NCBI GenBank assembly: GCA_030267565.1 | Contig: BRXU01000045.1 | Location: 12,501-76,500, forward strand | Source of the DNA: Pleodorina starrii | Lineage: Eukaryota > Chlorophyta > Chlorophyceae > Chlamydomonadales > Volvocaceae | DNA: 64,000 nt | Direction: 5' to 3' | In this document: positions 3,101-20,700 of the stretch, piece after piece | Numbering within the stretch: the first letter of the stretch is position 1 | How the letters are laid out: each line of letters opens with the position of its first letter | Notes under the pieces: model-generated | Database searches by the model: none | Told to the model about the DNA's origin: nothing | Seen by the model: the letters and a program-made list of their open reading frames with translations, nothing else | Translations under genes and position numbers: made by a program

Positions 3101-6100
3101 CGGCATCGACATCACCCATGCGGCTGACGGCCCGGCCGGCAGCGACGTCGCTGTTGGAGGCGATGCAGCGGCGGTAGCGTCGCCGCTGCCGCCACGCTGC
3201 TTGGATTTCAGCTCCGATGGCACAGCCCTGCCGCTGCCGCTGCCGCCGCCACTGCCGCCGCCGCTGCCGACCCCAGCGGTGCCGCGGAGGTTTCCCAGGG
3301 CCTTGACGGGCTGCGGCCGCCAGGACTGGCTCGTTAGAGAGTACGACATTGTCGTACGGGAGCCCGACCGGCTACTGGTGGCGCTGGTGTACTGCTCGCT
3401 GTCCGGCGGCGTGAAGTCGTCGTACGTGTACTTGGTCGAGGTGGTGGCGTTGCTGGAGGAGCCAAAGGAAGCTGCCTTGGACCCCATGCCCCGACCCACG
3501 GGTCCGTCGCCGCCGCCTTCGCCGCCTTCACCGCCGCCGCGGCCGTTCCTGCCGCCCACGGCTGACCCGGGGCGAGAGCTGATCCGGCTGCTGGTGGCGC
3601 TGGTGTAGAGGTCGCTGTCCGGCGGCGTAAAGTCGTCGTACGTATACTTGGTCGAGGTGGTGGCGGAGCTGAAGGACCCGCCGGAGGCGGCGGCGGCGGC
3701 CGCCGCTGGCGGCGGCGGCGCCGGCGCCTCCGGCGCCGTGTTGCCGGTGGACCGCTGCAGCTGCCTCTTGCGGCGACGGAGCTGCGCCGTACCGGTGGCG
3801 GTGGTGGGATCCGGCCGCGGACAGCCCTCTCTCACCACGTCGTGCACGATGCGAAGTAGCGCCCGCTCCGCCGCCGTCGTACGGGTGGGGTGGCCGCCGG
3901 CCGCCTCCGCCACCAGTCGCAACGCCTCCAGGAATTGGGGAAAGGTCAGCGCCAGGCGCGACGGCCGGTGCTGCTGGCCCCTTGCGGCGCCGGCGCCGCC
4001 GCCGCCGCCGCTGCTGTACGGCAACGCCTTGGCGGCGGCTAGCCATGCTGCGGCGGAGTTGGGGCCCTGCACTTCGTGAAGCCGCGGCATGCCGCCGCCG
4101 CCGCCGCCGCTGGTTGCCATGGGGTGGCCGTCCGGTGGTGCCTGGTAGGCTGCCGAGCTGCGGCTGGGTGGCTGTTTGTCGCTGGGGGCTGCTCGGGCCT
4201 CACTGCTGACCACGGCCCCCAGAGAGTTGCGGGGCAGACCCAGCTTGGCGCCTCCCTCGCCCCGGGGGATGGGCAGATCGTGGATGCCTGGCGAGTGGGA
4301 GGGAGTGGGAGGGAGTGGGAGGGAGTGGGAGGGAGTGGGAGGGAGCGGGAGGGAGTGGGAGGGAGGGAGCGCGCTTCTTTATTCAGCTCGACAGTCACAC
4401 CACCACCACCACCATGCATCCACACCACCACCATCACCGCACCCTACCTCAGCCGGTCCCAACCCATCCCAGCCCAAACTGAACCCCACCGCCCCTCCCT
4501 TTCCAGTTTCCAACCCCACGCCGTCCCCACCATCCAACCATCAACACAGACCCGGCCCCCACCGCCCCCGTCCATCCGCTGCACTATGTTGGGTTTTATG
4601 ACCCACAACCACCACCCAGTCCCGCCACCCCACCGCCCCCACCGCCCACCCCACCCGAGCTGTCATCCGGGCAATACACGCCGGCGATGGAGGAGGCCTG
4701 CACGAATGCCGCCTCCAGGGTGGCCGGCGTCACACCCGACCCGTGGGTCGCAATCAGCTCCCGGATGGCGTCGCAGTCGCCGCACAGCCGCAACCAGGAA
4801 CTCCTGGGGGCGGCGGGGGGTGGGGGGCGGGGTGGGAGTGCAGCGCCACGCATGCAGTGTGGGGCGTCCCGTGTTTTAGGTGGTGCAATGCGGTGCGGTG
4901 TGATGTGAGGGGGCGGGAGCGGGGGCGGGGAGGTCGCAATAGGGGTGAAACCGCAGCGAGGTAATGCGGCGGGGGAGGGGAATGGGGGAAACTTGGGCGC
5001 TTGGGCGCTTGGGCTGGGCCGGGCCGGGCCGGGCCGGGCCGGGCCGGGCCGGGCCGGGCCGGGCTGGCCGCAGTGCCGCGCATGCCGCTTGTGCTCTCTC
5101 CGGCGGCCTCACCACTGATTCATTGCCATTGTCTGTGGGAAATGAAAGTGTGCGGCACGGCGGCAACCGCCTGGTGGCTGGAGGCAGCGATACACACAAG
5201 ATAGGACCCTAAATCCTTAATAACCCTAAAACCATTCAGCCCGTCACGACCACCACGTTGCCAGCCCCAACCCACACGCCTCTTCGAACCCCCCAGCCCC
5301 CCAGCCCCCCAGCCAGCCACCGCCCCTCCTCACATTTCCATAACACTCAAGGACCGAAACAGGCAGCAGCACGCGCCATACGCCGCCGGCTGGGAGCAGC
5401 ACGCAAAGCCGCCGCCGGCGCAGCGCCCTCCCCCTCCACCTCCGCCTCCCACTGCCGAGGCAGCGGAGGATGCGGCGGGCGCGACCTCTCCCGAGCCTTC
5501 ACCACCGCCCAAACCGCCGCCGCCGCCGCCGTTCCCCCCGGCGGCGGTGGCGCTAGCATCCGCCGCCTCTGCCGCAGCGGTCTCGTCCGGAAGCTTGTAA
5601 GACGCCGGTGGCATCTTGCCCTTGTTGTACATCACATTGTATCTGCAGCGTGCGGCGTTAGCGAGGGGCGGCACGCGTTTCCACGGCCGTTGGCCGCAAA
5701 CGGTTTAGGGTTTTATGAGGTTGAGATTTGGGGGTTTGGGGTTTTAAGGGGTGTTCTTGTGTTCATTGCCGCGACGGAACAACGAACAACGGGAGGACGT
5801 AGCCGGCGCCGGCGGCCGCTGACCCGTGGGTCATTCCGGCGGTCCCAGACCGCCTCTAGCCGCACTCCCCCCACCTCCCCTCATCCCCACTCCCCTCCCC
5901 TTCCTCATCCCTCATGGCTCCACTCCCTCCCTCCCTCCCTCACCGGTGGAACGCGGCCCTCAGGTTCCTGGCGTTGATGAGCGGCAGGGCGGGCAGGAAG
6001 CGGCGGACCGGAGGGGGAATGCCCAGCGAGAGAAACAGCTCCTTGGCAAGGGGGAGAGCGGGGACGAGGGGGAGGGGGAGGGGAGGCAGGGAGGTGACTG

Positions 6101-12372: not shown

Positions 12373-15300
12373 ATGGCAAAGGCCAAGCCCAAGGCCGCCG
12401 CCGCAAAGGCGAAGACGGCGGTTCTGGCGGCCCAAATGAAAGCCAAACCCAAGAAGCCCAATCCATTTGAGCTAAAGGGATCGAAAGGGCACTTTGACAC
12501 TATCGGCAGGCGGCTCAGCGGCAAGAAGCAGAACGTCATCCAGGCCCGTCAAGAGGCCGTCAATCGAGTGCGTGCCCGCTGCGGCGAGCGTGTGGGCGTG
12601 GAACCCTAGCAAATTCTCACGATGACCAGTCGTTACGTGCTACGCCTTGCAGAGGAAGAAGACGCTCTTGGTGGAGTACCGGCAGCTCCGAAAGGCTAAC
12701 ACTTTCGTGGACAGGCGCTTTGGCGGTGAGTCTTGGAGTAAACCCCCCATCAGCTCCGTATAATCGCGAACGACCTGATTGGTGCTAGCGCCATGGCTCG
12801 GTTTTTCGTAACTCATAGGGCGTGTTTCGGAGCCCCCCCAAAATGCCACTCGCAACAGCCTGGGAAAGGCCCTTGTCCCTAGAGCGGTTCTCGCCGGCCG
12901 GCACTCGAGCCGCAACGACAGATGCTTGGGGCCTGACGTGGCGGGCGGGTGACTACCGCCCGCAATTGCGTCCCGTGCCAGCACGCCGCATTTTAACGGC
13001 ACAGCACAGGATCCCCCTCTTTCCCACGCACGCACTACAGCACCCACGGCCGACAGAGCGCCGGGAAGGAAGTCATTTCGTTGCATGGGCTCGGCGGTGT
13101 TTGCACACAGCACACAGCACAACGACCCGCACATTGCTGTGCCCCGCGCATTTCAGTGCTTTCATGAGTCGGCGCTGACACATTGCCCGGACAGCCGGGA
13201 CATTCCGGAATGATGAACAGACACACGATCTGTTGCCTTCCTGTTGAGCCCCCCTTGAAGGGGTCTCTGATGCAAGTTCTACACGAGATTGCTGACCGGA
13301 AAAAAAGAGCCTCGCTTCGCCGCTGCAGATGCACGCACGCGCATGCTCAGCATTTCCAAAAACGCCCCAGGCTAGGCCCCACCGCCCCACACCCGGAATG
13401 ATGAACAGACACACGATCTGTTGCCTTCCTGTTGAGCCCCCCTTGAAGGGGTCTCTGATGCAAGTTCTACACGAGATTGCTGACCGGAAAAAAAGAGCCT
13501 CGCTTCGCCGCTGCAGATGCACGCACGCGCATGCTCAGCATTTCCAAAAACGCCCCAGGCTAGGCCCCACCGCCCCACACCCGGAATGATGAACAGACAC
13601 ACGATCTGTTGCCTTCCTGTTGAGCCCCCCTTGAAGGGGTCTCTGATGCATGTTCTACACGAGATTGCTGACCGGAAAAAAAGAGCCTCGCTTCGCCGCC
13701 GCAGATGCACGCACGCGCTTGCTCAGCATTTCCAAAAACGCCCCAGGCTAGGCCCCACCGCCCCACACCCGGAATGATGAACAGACACACGATCTGTTGC
13801 CTTCCTATTGAGCCCCCCTTGAAGGGGTCTCTGATGCATATTCTACACGAGATTGCTGACCGGAAAAAAGAGAGCCCGGCGCCGCCGCGGCCGCAGATGC
13901 AAGCACGCACATGCCCAGCATTCCGTAAAAGTGCCCCAGGCTAGGCCCCACCTCCCCACACCCGGAATGATGAACAGACACACGATCTGTTGCCTTCCTG
14001 TTGAGCCCCCCTTGAAGGGGTCTCTGATGCATGTTATACACGAGATTGCTGACCGGAAAAAAGAAAGCCCGGCGCCGCCGCGGCCGCACATGCACAGCAC
14101 ACCTCTCTTGACCCGCCCCCTGCCCCCTTCCCTCGAACCCAACCCTCCACAGAGACCGATCCCGAGCTGACGGAGGCGGACAAGGGACTGGCGCGATTGC
14201 AGGCGCAGCGCCTGAAGCAGCAGCAGCAGCAGGACCGCCTGAAGAAGAAACGTGAGCACGGGTCTCTCCCTCCCTCTCCCCCATGAGTGGGGCAGGGTGT
14301 GGGGGCGGTTGTGGGGTAGGGGTCGGGTGGGGACCGGACGCAAAACACTGATCTGGGCTGGGCCGAGCCCTGAGATCGGCACGGAAGGGGCCCATATGTA
14401 GGTTTATTTATGACTCCCACACGGGGGCATGCTGTCGCAACACACGCACGCACGCGCACACGTAAGACTTTTAAGGAAGAGTGTGGTGTTCAATAGGCGG
14501 TGGTGGCGACTGGCGCGGGCCACAAGCGCCACCAGGGCAGCAGAGTTCGGACGCTGGCCGCATTGCCGTACCGCCGTACTCACGTATCTTTCTCGCCCGC
14601 AGGCGGCTCCAAGTTCACGCTGAGCGAGGGCGATGACGGCGGTGAGGGGCTCACCCACTTGGGTCGCTCCCTGTCGGATGCGGATCTGCGCAATCTCATG
14701 GATGTGAGTAAATGCGACTCTATTTGGGTTTGATCCGGTTTGATCCTGGATGGTTGCATAAGTGGTAATGATGGGGACGGGCAGCAATGAGCCTACATAC
14801 ATACTCGTCAGTCGCTTAATTGTGGAAATGAGATAAGAGTAGAATCGGGCAAACTAACCAACTTTCGTGCCCTTGCCGTACCCGTGTCGTGTCGTACTCG
14901 TACCTCGCGCAGCGGCCCGAGTTTGACGACCTGGACGAGGAGATGGTGGAGGAGCTGGTGGCGCAGTACCACTTCGGAGGCGGCGGCGGTGGAGAGGGAG
15001 GGGAGGGCGAGGGCGAGGAGGGCGCCGCTGCCCGGGGCCCCGACGGAAAGCCCAAGACGCGCAAACAGGTCGGTGGGCGGGTGGTGGGTGGTGGGGCAAC
15101 TCACTGCCTTCCTCCCTCTCCCCCTGCCCGCTTTGCACTGATACACTCCCTCACTTCACCTCACCTCACACTCTCCCCACCTCACCCCCCACTCCCCCCT
15201 CGCTCACACTCGCTCGCTCACCCAACCCCCCCCCCCCACCCCCACCCCCAGGTGATGGAGGAGATTATCGCCAAGAGTCGCATGTACCGGGCTCTCAAGG

Positions 15301-18300
15301 CCAAGCAGCGGGAGGAAGACGAGGCGGCGCTGGAGGCCATTAACCAGGAGTTCAGACAGCTGGTGGCCTCGGCGACGCTGAACCGACTCATCAAGGCGCC
15401 CGGGGAGAACAAGTGGGTGATGAGCGCTGTGGGGTGGGTGCGTTTGTTTGTGTGTGGGTGTGGGTGTTTGCAGGATTTGGGTTTTCGGCTGTTTCCTTTT
15501 GCTTTTGCTTCGCCGCTCCACATTCCCTTTGCCGCACCTCGTCACCCTCCATCTGTGTAATGTGTATGTGTATATACCATGTGTGTGTAACTGTGTATGT
15601 GCTTATACATGTTGACGTCTGCAGGGGCGTCAAGGTGAAGGCGGACAACCCCGACGATGCGGCCTACGACATTGCCGCCCGGGAGCTGGCCTTTGAGTCC
15701 AAGGGCGCGGCGGGGGAGCGGACGCTCTCTCCCGAGGAGCTGCAGGAGAGGGAGCGGCAGCGGCTGGAGAAGCTGGAGAAGGAGAGACTCAAGCGCATGC
15801 GGGGGGGAGGAGATGACGAGGATGAGGATGATGAGGGCGAGGAGGAGGGGGAGAGCGGTGATGATGGCGAGGGCCGGCGGGGCGGCAAGCGGCGGCGGGA
15901 GATGCAGTCGGGTGCGTGCGTGTGTGTGTGTGTGTCGGGAGAGGGGTTGCGTGCGTGGGCGCTGGCGGGTCCGGGGTGTGTATGTGTGTGTGTGGGGGGG
16001 GGGTCGTGGGTTTGTTGGTGTGTGCGGGTATGTGTGCCGCTTTGCGTGGGTTTGTGTCCACATGTGTCCATATGGTTGGGGGGTGGAAGGGGTTGTGCGC
16101 TTCGTCGCCGCAACCACCGCTCCGACAAAGTTTGTCCACCCTTGTCTCTCTCTCTTGACAACCGCCCCGTCGCTTCGAAACCCAAAACACACGCAGGCGA
16201 TGCACTCGGGGACGACTATGACTCGGAGGGCTCGGAGGGCGATGACGACGACAACGAGGGCGCGGAGGAGGACGAGGGCGAGGAGGGTGACGGTGGTGGG
16301 ATTTCGGAGCTGGACCAGCGGCGCATGAAGGCGGCGGCGGGCAACCACCCGTTGCAGGTGGGAGGGAGGGTGAGGGTGAGGGAGGGAGGAGAACGGGGGA
16401 CAGGTGAGAGAAGGGATGGGGGAAGTAGCGGCGCTGGAATTGGAACCCACCACTACTACTGGGCCCATCTGTCTTTGCAGGAGACCTTCCGAGCTGCGGC
16501 GGCCGCCCTGGCCAAGAAGTACGGCGTTGAGGCGCCCGTGAACCCCTTCCTGGAGGAGGGCGAGGAGGAGGATGAAGATGAAGAGGGCGAGGAAGAGGAG
16601 GGCGAGAGCGGGAGCGGTGACGGCGAGGAGGAGGAGGAGGAGGGCGAGGACGATGACAACGATGAAGAGGAGGAGGTTTCGGAGGAAGGTACGGCAAGGC
16701 ACGGAACACCAACGAACAACTAACCACCGTTTCCGCCTGTGCGCGCGCCACCTCGCAAGTAAGCCTCCAGACTCTGCGCCGCGTGTCATCATAGTATCTT
16801 TTTATCGGCCTTTCGACTTGACGGTCGAAGGTGGAAGGTGGACTGCCAACCCTAAGCTGTCCGCCCATTACCTCGCGTGTTTCCCATCGGAAGTATCGAT
16901 CCACCACCACCACCACCACCACCACCCAACGTTGGTGCCCCCTCCAACGTTTGTACCCTCCCCCCTCATCATCATCAAGAGTACCACCAACCTCCCCTCC
17001 CTCCCCCACCCGCCCCACCCACAGAGCAGCTGGAGCAGCGACGCAACCCCGCCCATCCGCCGTCCACCTCTCGTCCCGGCGACGGCGAAGGCAACGCCGC
17101 CGCCGCCGCCGCCGGCAAGAAGAAGGCTCCCGCCGCTGCCGCTGCCGTTGCCGTTGCCGCCAAAGCAGGCAAGCCGCTGGAGGGCCCCTTGGACCTGCCG
17201 TACACCATCCCGCTACCTTCGTCGTACAATGAGTTTGCGGCGCTCGTCAACGGGCGGCCCGCGGAGGACCTGGCCACCGCCATTGGTCGCATCCGCGCCT
17301 TCAATGCGGTTGCCCTGGCGACTGACAACAAACGGAAGATGCAGGTGTGTGGTGCCGTGGGTCCGTGGTCTCGGAGCTGGCCTCCATCACATCCACCCAT
17401 CCTGGATTAATAATTGAGGGAAGGACAGAAGACTCGAATGGCAAAGTGGGCGGCGGCGGCGGCGGCACCCGGGGGCATTGGGGGCGTGCCTTTATGGCTC
17501 TTTCCGGAATGATGAACAGACACACGATCTGTTGCCTTCCTGTTGAGCCCCCCTTGAAGGGGTCTCTGATGCATGTTCTACACGAGATTGCTGACCGGAA
17601 AAGGAGCCTCTCGTCGCCGCCGTAGATGCACACACGCACATGCCCAGCATTCCACAAGAACTCCCCCCGCCCAGGCGAGCCTATGCCGCCACCGCACCAC
17701 ACCCGGAATGATGAACAGACACGATCTGTTGCCTTCCTATTGAGCCCGACCGCGGGCCCTGATGCAACAAACACGTTTTACACGAGATTGCTGACCGGGC
17801 CTTATGTGAAGGCGGGACCCATCTCCCGCCGGTTCCCTACATGTTGCGCTGTTGGCTTCCCGGTTGCTTTTACCCGTCCCCGTATGTGTGTGTGATATTA
17901 TAGCACATGCGCCCTCGCATCTCGTCCATTGGCCCCTCCCTTTGGCCCGGTAATTGGAATGATGAACAGACACACGATCTGTTGCCTTCCTATTGAGCCC
18001 CCCGTGAAGGGGTCTCTGATGCATGTTCTACACGAGATTGCTGACCAAATCCGGAGCCGCGCGGTGCCGATGACTCACCCGCCTGCACAGCACCGCTTTG
18101 TTGCCCATGCGGGCCCCTCCGTTCTCCCCGTTGTCGTCCTTTCACTTTCTTCTGCTACATTACCGTTTACGGGCTCCGTCCTATACGTGGAGAGCCCCCC
18201 CATCTCACATGCCGCAACACACCGCGCCGCACGCAGGAGCTGTACGGCATCCTGGTACAGCACTTTGCGCTGGAGGCCGGCAAATCGCCGCTGCCGGTGC

Positions 18301-20700
18301 CCTCGCTGGACGTACTCACCAGGGTCCTCCTGGAGTTGACGCCCGAGGTGCCGTACTATGCCGCCACCGTCGCCCGCGCGCGCCTGGGCCGCATGTCTGA
18401 ACAGCTGACGGCGGCGCTCGGTGGCGCGACGTCGTCTCCTTGGCCGCCGGCTCGCGTGGTCCTGCAGCTGAAGCTCTTTTCGGCGCTGTTTCCGACGAGC
18501 GACAGACGCCACCCGGTGCTGACGCCGGCGGCGTTGCTGGTTGGTGAGTGGTTGGGGATGGGGGGGTCCCGGGGTGGCGGTTGGGTCGGGGTGTGCCTGT
18601 GTTGGGGTGACGACAGGCTCTTTCCGGAATGATGAACAGACACACGATCTGTTGCCTTCCTGTTGAGCCCCCCTTGAAGGGGTCTCTGATGCATGTTCTA
18701 CACGAGATTGCTGACCGGAAAAGAACGGGCCCGGCGCCGCCGCGGCCGCAGATGCACGCACGCACATGCCCAGCATTCCCGATAACGCCCCAGGCTAGGC
18801 CCTACCGCCCCACACCCGGAATGATGAACAGACACACGATCTGTTGCCTTCCTGTTGAGCCCGACCGCGGGCCCTGATGCAACAATCACAAGAATACTGA
18901 CCGGGCCTTATGATAAAAACAATACAATTCATTTCCCGCATTCCAATCCCCCTCAAAACGGTAGTCCACCCACACCCACACCCCTCTCTCCACCTCCCCT
19001 CCCCTCTACCGTCCCTCCCCACCCGCAGGCAAGTACCTGAACCAGTGCGTGGTCAGCAACCCCCACGAGGCGGCCCTGGGGCTGTGTCTGTGCGGCCTCA
19101 TGACTCACCTGGCCGCACCCGCGCAACGGACCACACCCGAGGTCCTCGTCTTTCTGCGCGACTGCCTGGCGGCCCTCCTGCCCGCCGGACTGGCGGCATG
19201 CTCGTCGTTGCCGGGGCCGGGGGCGGGGGCGGCAGCAGGGCAAAAGGGCAAGGAAGCCGGGGCCAAGAAGCGGAGAGGTGGCGGCGGCGCGGGTGCAGCG
19301 GAGAACGGCAGCGGCGGCGAAGCCGCCGCTGCGGTGGCGCCGCCGGCACCGCAACAGCAGCAGCAACAGCGCGACCCCGACGCGTTTGTCAGGTTTGCGC
19401 CCGGGTGTTTGGCGCTAGGTGGCAACGCGGCGGCGGAGCTGCCGCCGCCGCCGCCGGCGCTAGACCTGTACGGCGTGCTGGGCATGTCGTCCAGCGACCC
19501 GCGGGTCGGTGGCGAGGCTTTCAAGTTGGGGCTGCTGCGAGTGGCGCTGTGCGGCGTGCGTCGCGCTGCGGCGGTGGCGGCGGAGTCGGGCCTGGTCTGT
19601 TTCGAGCAGCTGTTTGGGCCGCTGCGGTCGGTTGTTTCGGAGCTGAGCCGGATTGACGGGCGGCTTCCCGAGGAGCTCCGAAACCTGCGGTGAGTGTTGG
19701 GAGGGGTTACCCCAAAAACGGTCCCCAGGCTAGCTGCCGCCACCGCGCATACCCGGAATGATGAACAGACACACGATCTGTTGCCTTCCTGTTGAGCCCC
19801 CCGCGGAGGGGTCTCTGATGCATGTTCTACACGAGATTGCTGACCGGGCCTTTTGCACCGCGTATCACATATCACGGCAAATCGGCGCAGGCAACCCTCG
19901 CCCTGTTGAGGTCCTGTTGGGGCCCCCTCTGTCTGTCTGTCTGCCGTTCCTTCGGACCAGACCGCCGCAGGAGCAACCACCCACCGCAGCCCACACATCC
20001 CCACCGCTTGCCCCTATCCCCCGCCACATCCTAACCTCGCCTCTCCTGCCGCCTCTTCCTCCTCCTCCACCCCCCAACAGGGCGTCGGTGCAGCAGCAGC
20101 TGGTCGCGGCTTCGGCCACCTGTGTCGCCAGCCGCCGGCCGCTGGCGCATCCCGGCCGCGCGCGGTCCGGCGGCGCCGCCGCCGGGGTCATCCCCGCCGC
20201 CGCCGTGCGCGAGTTCAACCCGCGCTTCGAGGACGGTTTCGTGTCGGGTCGCGATTACGATCCCGACCGGCAGCGGGCGGAGGCGCGGCGACTCAAGCGG
20301 GCTCTGGTCAAGGAGCGGAGAGGTGGGTTTTGGGGCTTGAGGATTTTAGGGGTTTGGCCTGGTGGGTCCCGGGGTCCTGATTGGGAGGGGCACGGTGGGC
20401 GGATTGGGCGCTCGGGTGGGGCACTTCTCTCTCTCCCCCCTCCTTACCCTTCCCCGCGCGTGTTGCCCCCTTTCCCCACCCCCACCGCCACCAGGCGCCA
20501 TCCGCGAGCTGCGCCGCGACTCGGTGTTCATGGCGGAGGAACGCGACCGCGAGACTGCCCGCGTGGATGCGGAGCGGCTGCAGAGCGAGCGCCAGTTTTA
20601 CAGCGAGCTGCAGCGGCAGGAGGCCGATCTGCGCAGCGGCGGCCAGGGCGGCATGAACCCGCACCTCAAGAAGAGGAAGGGAGGAGGCGGCAAGCGGTAG
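12373..20700 (+). CDS. NOP14: Nucleolar protein 14 homologue (SSU processome)
   Basis: NOP14 is a nucleolar scaffold of the small-subunit processome, needed for early 18S rRNA cleavages and 40S assembly. Fourteen exons join in frame: 12373-12567, 12653-12725, 14153-14251, 14603-14703, 14913-15068, 15252-15412, 15625-15911, 16197-16357, 16481-16688, 17025-17344, 18237-18543, 19029-19689, 20081-20322 and 20495-20700 (TAG), about 1,058 residues. Family marks are NPFE with a Lys-rich start, RKKTLLVEYRQLRKANTF, LTHLGRSLSD, RPEFDDLDEEM, long acidic stretches in exons 7-9 typical of nucleolar proteins, LPYTIPLPSSYNEF, the FNPRFEDGF segment and a basic C-terminus. It is longer than the human protein because of Ala/Gly/Glu-rich inserts. 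Introns 2, 10, 11 and 12 hold repeated box C/D snoRNA-like elements on the same strand, so pre-mRNA splicing could supply them. It is convergent with PsbR. Confidence 0.94.
13205..13299 (+). ncRNA. Box C/D snoRNA-like element, copy 1 (NOP14 intron 2)
   Basis: A 95-nt element. Box C (TGATGA) lies just inside a 5' CCGG; box D (CTGA) lies just before a 3' CCGG. The two ends pair, and here the flanks extend the stem to TTCCGG/CCGGAA. Internal TTGA (D'-like) and TGATGC (C'-like) flank a CCCC/GGGG hairpin. A second hairpin, AACAGA/TCTGTT, follows box C. First of five tandem units with an exact 188-bp period for the first four. Target RNA unknown. Confidence 0.72.
13393..13487 (+). ncRNA. Box C/D snoRNA-like element, copy 2 (NOP14 intron 2)
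   Basis: Same boxes and hairpins as copy 1, with the same sequence before box D (ending ACACGAGATTG). It is preceded by CACC, so the terminal stem is CCGG/CCGG only. The 93-bp linker to copy 3 is identical or nearly identical to the previous one. Confidence 0.72.
13581..13675 (+). ncRNA. Box C/D snoRNA-like element, copy 3 (NOP14 intron 2)
   Basis: As copy 2, but with GCATGTTC in place of GCAAGTTC after the C'-like box. Boxes C, D', C' and D are intact. Confidence 0.72.
13769..13863 (+). ncRNA. Box C/D snoRNA-like element, copy 4 (NOP14 intron 2)
   Basis: As copy 3 but with CTATTGAG instead of CTGTTGAG at the D'-like box (the TTGA core is kept) and GCATATTC after the C'-like box. Confidence 0.72.
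13962..14056 (+). ncRNA. Box C/D snoRNA-like element, copy 5 (NOP14 intron 2)
   Basis: Last of the tandem group, spaced 193 bp from copy 4, with GCATGTTATAC after the C'-like box. It ends about 97 bp before NOP14 exon 3. All boxes and both hairpins are kept. Confidence 0.72.
17504..17598 (+). ncRNA. Box C/D snoRNA-like element, copy 6 (NOP14 intron 10)
   Basis: Full-length 95-nt copy. Its flanks extend the terminal stem to TTTCCGG/CCGGAAA (7 bp), the best terminal stem in the family together with copy 9. First of three copies in this intron. Confidence 0.72.
17703..17798 (+). ncRNA. Box C/D snoRNA-like variant, copy 7 (NOP14 intron 10)
   Basis: Variant copy. The CCCC/GGGG hairpin is replaced by GCCCG-ACCG-CGGGC, so both arms changed and pairing is kept. 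Three bases (CAC) are missing from the loop of the first hairpin but its stem is intact. The region before box D is longer. The terminal stem is CCCGG/CCGGG. Confidence 0.68.
17954..18048 (+). ncRNA. Box C/D snoRNA-like variant, copy 8 (NOP14 intron 10)
   Basis: The terminal stem is TTGG/CCAA instead of CCGG/CCGG: both sides changed together, which is compensatory. The hairpin loop is GTGA within CCCC/GGGG. Boxes C, C' and D are intact and the D'-like core is TATTGAG. Confidence 0.7.
18624..18718 (+). ncRNA. Box C/D snoRNA-like element, copy 9 (NOP14 intron 11)
   Basis: Full-length copy with the extended TTTCCGG/CCGGAAA terminal stem, nearly identical to copy 6. It is followed by the same linker family seen in intron 2 and then by copy 10. 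Confidence 0.72.
18816..18904 (+). ncRNA. Box C/D snoRNA-like variant, copy 10 (NOP14 intron 11)
   Basis: Variant with the GCCCG/CGGGC hairpin and CCCGG/CCGGG terminal stem of copy 7. The segment before box D is replaced by a different sequence (AACAATCACAAGAATA), so a guide here would choose a different target. Boxes C, D', C' and D remain. Confidence 0.66.
19753..19847 (+). ncRNA. Box C/D snoRNA-like element, copy 11 (NOP14 intron 12)
   Basis: Full-length copy, alone in its intron. The hairpin loop is changed to GCGGA inside an intact CCCC/GGGG stem. The terminal stem is CCCGG/CCGGG, and the 3' flank GGGCCTT resembles that of copies 7 and 10. Confidence 0.71.

Follow-up and report, generated by a model that had tools for sequence, protein, structure and literature searches.

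Eleven intronic copies of a box C/D snoRNA family in the NOP14 gene of Pleodorina starrii, with a predicted 18S rRNA target

The NOP14 gene of the green alga Pleodorina starrii raises the question of why a single protein-coding gene should carry one short element eleven times in its introns, what RNA these elements may specify, and by which route they multiplied. In the first-pass annotation of the stretch of DNA analyzed here (64,000 nucleotides, hereafter the window), eleven box C/D-like elements were described in four introns of NOP14, all on the host strand, and were taken for an amplified snoRNA family in a ribosome-biogenesis gene. From the analysis described below, the locus very probably encodes one box C/D snoRNA in eleven intronic gene copies, of which the guide before box D' would direct the methylation of the 18S rRNA nucleotide equivalent to A420, and the family appears to have grown by duplication within the gene.

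The host gene NOP14 (12373..20700, plus strand) was spliced by hand into 14 exons, and all of the 13 introns start with GT and end with AG. The spliced sequence forms a single open frame of 1058 amino acids, which is 100% identical over its full length to one Pleodorina starrii protein; the next relatives listed are from Volvox (V. africanus and V. reticuliferus), Edaphochlamys, and Gonium. Of five exon pieces, four were matched by the Pfam Nop14 model, and two of these four exceeded the curated cut-off. NOP14 is a ribosome-assembly factor of the small subunit and belongs to the same pathway as an rRNA guide. On this 14-exon model, five copies of the element are located in intron 2 (12726-14152), three in intron 10 (17345-18236), two in intron 11 (18544-19028), and one in intron 12 (19690-20080), all on the plus strand, in agreement with the distribution over introns and the host-strand orientation originally described.

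The number of elements was examined by a motif scan of the 64-kb window, in which RTGATGA had to be followed 50-130 nt downstream by CTGA and the ends had to form a terminal stem of at least four Watson-Crick pairs. A total of 11 matches were identified on the plus strand and none on the minus strand, and these are exactly the NOP14 elements, so the same eleven were recovered; in 200 first-order Markov sequences, the mean number of matches was 0.04 per strand and the maximum was 1. All 11 copies carry box C (ATGATGA) near the 5' end, box D (CTGA) near the 3' end, and a terminal stem of 4-7 bp, and the internal TTGA and TGATGC, at positions fitting boxes D' and C', are likewise invariant. The earlier description of TGATGA and CTGA close to pairing ends, together with the two internal motifs, thus holds for every copy, but two of its figures need correction. 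The elements, given as 89-96 nt, are 91-101 nt when the paired ends are included (95 nt in five of the 11), and the span of 13205..19847 should be widened at both sides, because the first stem starts at 13203 and the last copy ends at 19848.

The arrangement within an element is represented by copy 1 (13203..13301), in which a 6-bp terminal stem (TTCCGG/CCGGAA) encloses box C (13210..13216), the 14-nt D' guide TCTGTTGCCTTCCT (13229..13242), box D' TTGA (13244..13247), box C' TGATGC (13268..13273), the D guide ACACGAGATTG (13281..13291), and box D CTGA (13292..13295). Intron 2 also carries copies 2 (13393..13487), 3 (13581..13675), 4 (13769..13863), and 5 (13962..14056); like copy 9 (18621..18721) in intron 11 and copy 11 (19752..19848) in intron 12, these are defined by their coordinates and stem together with the motif scan. 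Intron 10 contains copy 6 (17501..17601), with a 7-bp stem, copy 7 (17702..17799), with another type of hairpin between D' and C', and copy 8 (17954..18048), with a compensatory stem TTGG/CCAA; the second copy of intron 11, copy 10 (18815..18905), keeps the D' guide but has lost the D guide. In every sequence-level feature tested, these elements agree with box C/D snoRNAs, and the proposal of an amplified family within a ribosome-biogenesis host is supported at that level.

Comparison of the copies indicated that the elements differ less than the DNA between them. Between copies 6 and 9, no difference was found in 91 positions of the element, and the spacers showed 22 substitutions in 95 positions and 19 gap columns; for copies 3 and 6, the corresponding values were 0/91 for the element and 20/95 plus 15 gap columns for the spacers. 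The conservation is not uniform, as copies 7 and 10 differ within the element at 5 of 83 positions and 11 gap columns. Part of the likeness among copies is accounted for by recent duplication, since the intron 2 spacers 1-2, 2-3, and 3-4 are near-identical (0-2 differences in 97), and gene conversion confined to the element could be a further contributor. Among 23 predicted base pairs, however, three showed changes on both sides that keep the pair: two in the terminal stem, where CCGG/CCGG is replaced by TTGG/CCAA in copy 8, and one in the hairpin between D' and C', where C-G is replaced by G-C in two copies. These changes favor selection on the RNA over element-only gene conversion. Two copies break two predicted pairs of the D'-C' hairpin, and for copies 7 and 10 a different hairpin is predicted at this place.

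Seven of the 11 copies were folded together with their flanks, and only copy 6 clearly exceeded shuffled sequences (z -2.40; 4/200); two others gave z near -1.5 and the remaining four between -0.71 and 0.02. The predicted fold of copy 9 leaves the terminal stem unclosed. In that of copy 6 (17494-17608), an outer helix GGCTC/GAGCC extends the terminal stem; GAGCC is retained on the 3' side only in copies 1-3, perhaps as a trace of unequal recombination. After box C, AACAGA and TCTGTT (13216-13234 and the equivalent positions) can pair as a hairpin, which is invariant except in one copy, where a gap removes one pair, and which overlaps the guide duplex.

No Rfam family was matched at the gathering level in the 64-kb window, and the Rfam model search proposed in the first-pass annotation thus gave no snoRNA family at that score. 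Under permissive settings, six weak matches were obtained in 8 kb, of which two miRNA matches and those to sisRNA, lncRNA, and sR53 were taken as chance. The useful one was U83D, which at 21.2 bits (cut-off 55; E 2.7) aligned through the D' guide and its box. The U83D model has CUGCUGCCUUCCUUCUGA at the position of CTGTTGCCTTCCTGTTGA in the NOP14 family. The NOP14 elements thus stay below the gathering score of the U83 family, and homology over the whole RNA was not found at that score.

The target was sought by pairing of the guides themselves. The D' guide TCTGTTGCCTTCCT is identical in all of its 14 nt in 11 of 11 copies and is followed by one nucleotide (G or A) and then by box D'. Against the complete 1800-nt 18S rRNA of one rDNA-bearing contig (L020), which we take to be yeast-like from its length and start, this guide forms 14 bp with AGGAAGGCAGCAGG, two of them G-U, and the fifth nucleotide from D' is predicted to lie opposite the A at position 420. 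Shuffled guides paired equally well in 4 of 2000 cases (2 of 600 in a first, smaller run), even though the right position was not required of them. A passage of PMC9418376 assigns A420 of 18S rRNA to the yeast guide snR52. Ten 18S sequences all agree at the site, but they were retrieved with a pattern that includes it, so that this agreement arises by selection and is no test; the tests are the shuffles and the known site. Of the two guides, neither of which had been assigned a target and both of which had been proposed for testing, the D' guide thus fits 18S rRNA, and the D guide gave nothing above chance, as described below.

The duplex was computed on the 18S rRNA of other eukaryotes. A search of the 136-Mb P. 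starrii assembly for two 18S motifs and one LSU motif gave no match, and viral contigs gave none for the 18S motif. The sole 5.8S match is a lone 5.8S-like sequence on contig C16 (1799240-1799413; single match, 86.5 bits); within its 3.2-kb locus no other Rfam family was found at the gathering level, and the few motifs sought in the surrounding 10 kb were not found. The lone 5.8S-like copy and the absence of the 18S and LSU motifs suggest that the rDNA is missing from this assembly. Ten contigs filed as bacterial genomes (L012-L021), L020 included, bear eukaryotic rDNA, which is probably contamination of these records; the rDNA of L014 contains four group I introns. As to other small RNA genes of the P. 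starrii assembly, at least 15 U2 snRNA genes are repeated in tandem on contig C60 (168404-196336) at a spacing of about 1980 bases, and six U6 genes form an array on contig C26 with a spacing of about 2 kb.

The distribution of the family in the genome was examined by searching the 136-Mb assembly at the DNA level, which gave at least 11 matches, and all those listed are in NOP14 on the host strand. A pattern of the D' guide with up to two mismatches gave at least 11 exact matches in NOP14 and at least four elsewhere. One of these four is a divergent relative of the snoRNA on contig C11 (L035). The other three (L036-L038; two mismatches each) were rejected, for in the matching orientation no box C is present in the preceding 50 nt, and the 55 nt that follow contain neither CTGA nor TTGA. 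The pattern of the D guide gave at least 10 exact matches, those listed being all in NOP14, and at least two with one mismatch; the two listed lack TGATGA in the preceding 110 nt.

The C11 relative, located on the minus strand with box C to box D at about 2931374-2931457, keeps box C, the D' guide, the D' box, a hairpin, and a C'-like box TGGTGC, and differs in its D guide and in box D, which is TTGA. Its D' guide still forms 14 bp with 18S rRNA (11 of 2000 shuffles as good). Its own D guide forms 10 bp with AGTTGGATTT in the 18S rRNA of L014, a fit equaled by 56 of 2000 shuffles, and AGTTGGATTT is thus a possible second 18S site of this relative. The element was read by eye as intronic and on the gene strand. 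Two joined pieces of the host exons matched Metallophos (E 1.4e-5), and three single pieces gave no match; the host is probably a phosphatase-like gene with the relative in its intron. The length from box C to the guide in copy 7 is that of the C11 relative, and one type of hairpin is common to copies 7 and 10 and the C11 relative. From these shared features, copies 7 and 10 look like the older type within NOP14.

The D guide offers an alternative reading, in which the RNAs are real snoRNAs selected for the action of ACACGAGATTG on some rRNA, snRNA, or mRNA, and the D' match is inherited. In agreement with this reading, 10 of the 11 copies have the D guide and box D in exact form, but the best fit of this guide to the complete 18S rRNA of L020 (TAATCTTGTGA) is 10 bp and was equaled by 339 of 2000 shuffles, and the changed guide before box D of copy 10 did no better against 18S (168 of 500 shuffles as good). 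No good match was found in U2, U5, U6, and the single 5.8S-like copy of the P. starrii genome, and nothing convincing in the ten rDNA-bearing contigs, in which three 18S sequences are complete and the other 18S and the 28S sequences partial. The longest pairing, 12 bp at position 996 of L019, was discarded as it lies outside the 18S, which starts at 3712. Furthermore, the D guide is absent from copy 10 and the C11 relative, both of which retain the D' guide. Selection for the D guide is accordingly quite improbable; as no convincing target was found for this guide in the rRNA and snRNA sequences searched, and copy 10 lacks it, the D' guide is the likely working half of the RNA. A broader proposal, that the copy number itself is functional, with guide dose and perhaps host pre-mRNA processing tied to NOP14, and that the D guide serves a second, non-ribosomal target, is considered unlikely.

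Action in cis would place the effect on the host transcript, where snoRNP assembly on the five intron 2 copies competes with splicing or alters the fate of the pre-mRNA, giving feedback on the level of NOP14. Such roles of snoRNAs in the host locus are, by its stated topic, the subject of PMC11028025. All of the copies found lie in a single gene, whose product acts in the same pathway. The conserved part is, however, the element and not the spacer, and we regard cis action as very unlikely. The spread of copies over several introns, and the run of A directly after the terminal stem in some of them (seven A in copies 1-3), might instead recall a mobile or dispersed repeat, either of SINE-like type or made of retroposed snoRNA pseudogenes, that was inserted in NOP14 by chance. 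Against this stand the restriction of all listed matches in the assembly to the host strand of NOP14, the intact boxes in 11 of 11 copies, and the spacers shared among copies, which point to DNA duplication of a larger unit. A decayed mobile repeat found genome-wide, the case that had been held to speak against a snoRNA family, was not seen among the genome matches listed, and a mobile origin is exceedingly improbable.

For the preferred reading, a family of 18S guides grown within the gene, the following course may be proposed. The NOP14 pre-mRNA would be transcribed and spliced, and the stretch of RNA enclosed by each terminal stem would be shielded by the C/D proteins, as is usual for this class, and trimmed out. 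The D' guide would then pair with 18S rRNA, and fibrillarin would add a 2'-O-methyl group to the A that corresponds to A420 of yeast. As to origin, spacer sequence is common to introns 2, 10, and 11 and also occurs upstream of copy 11 in intron 12, from which the duplicated unit can be defined as the snoRNA with about 100 nt of spacer; this unit would have been duplicated in tandem in intron 2 and also copied between the four introns that carry it. As a likely consequence, the dosage of one 18S guide is coupled to an assembly factor of the small subunit; that the family grew under selection for dosage is a guess.

Among known systems, yeast snR52 and vertebrate SNORD83 (U83) resemble the NOP14 family in the 18S segment and the predicted nucleotide, but in the NOP14 family the guide precedes the internal D' box and a hairpin lies between D' and C'. 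Human SNORD83 presumably serves A468; a literature search combining the two terms found no paper. Mammalian SNORD115 and SNORD116 form tandem arrays of many near-identical C/D copies in the introns of one transcription unit, as in NOP14, but their host is non-coding and they lack an ordinary rRNA target, whereas the NOP14 host is protein-coding and its D' guide fits 18S rRNA. In Chlamydomonas reinhardtii, snoRNA genes are clustered and form multigene families with isoforms, according to a second-hand account in PMC7671301, and the title of Chen et al. 2008 on this alga names intronic gene clusters. The NOP14 elements share this multicopy, clustered organization, but differ in being one family of 11 copies in four introns of one gene.

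The NOP14 family therefore looks like a fairly ordinary case of a well-known RNA class, noteworthy mainly for the presence of 11 copies in one gene. An algal snoRNA family to which the first-pass annotation could assign no target gains a proposed target in 18S rRNA, and the locus provides a clean example of snoRNA gene growth inside one protein-coding gene, in which the D' guide, the likely working half, is fixed amid variation in the D guide, hairpin, stem, and spacers. It may also serve as a natural system in which to ask whether the copy number of a guide affects the completeness of rRNA methylation.
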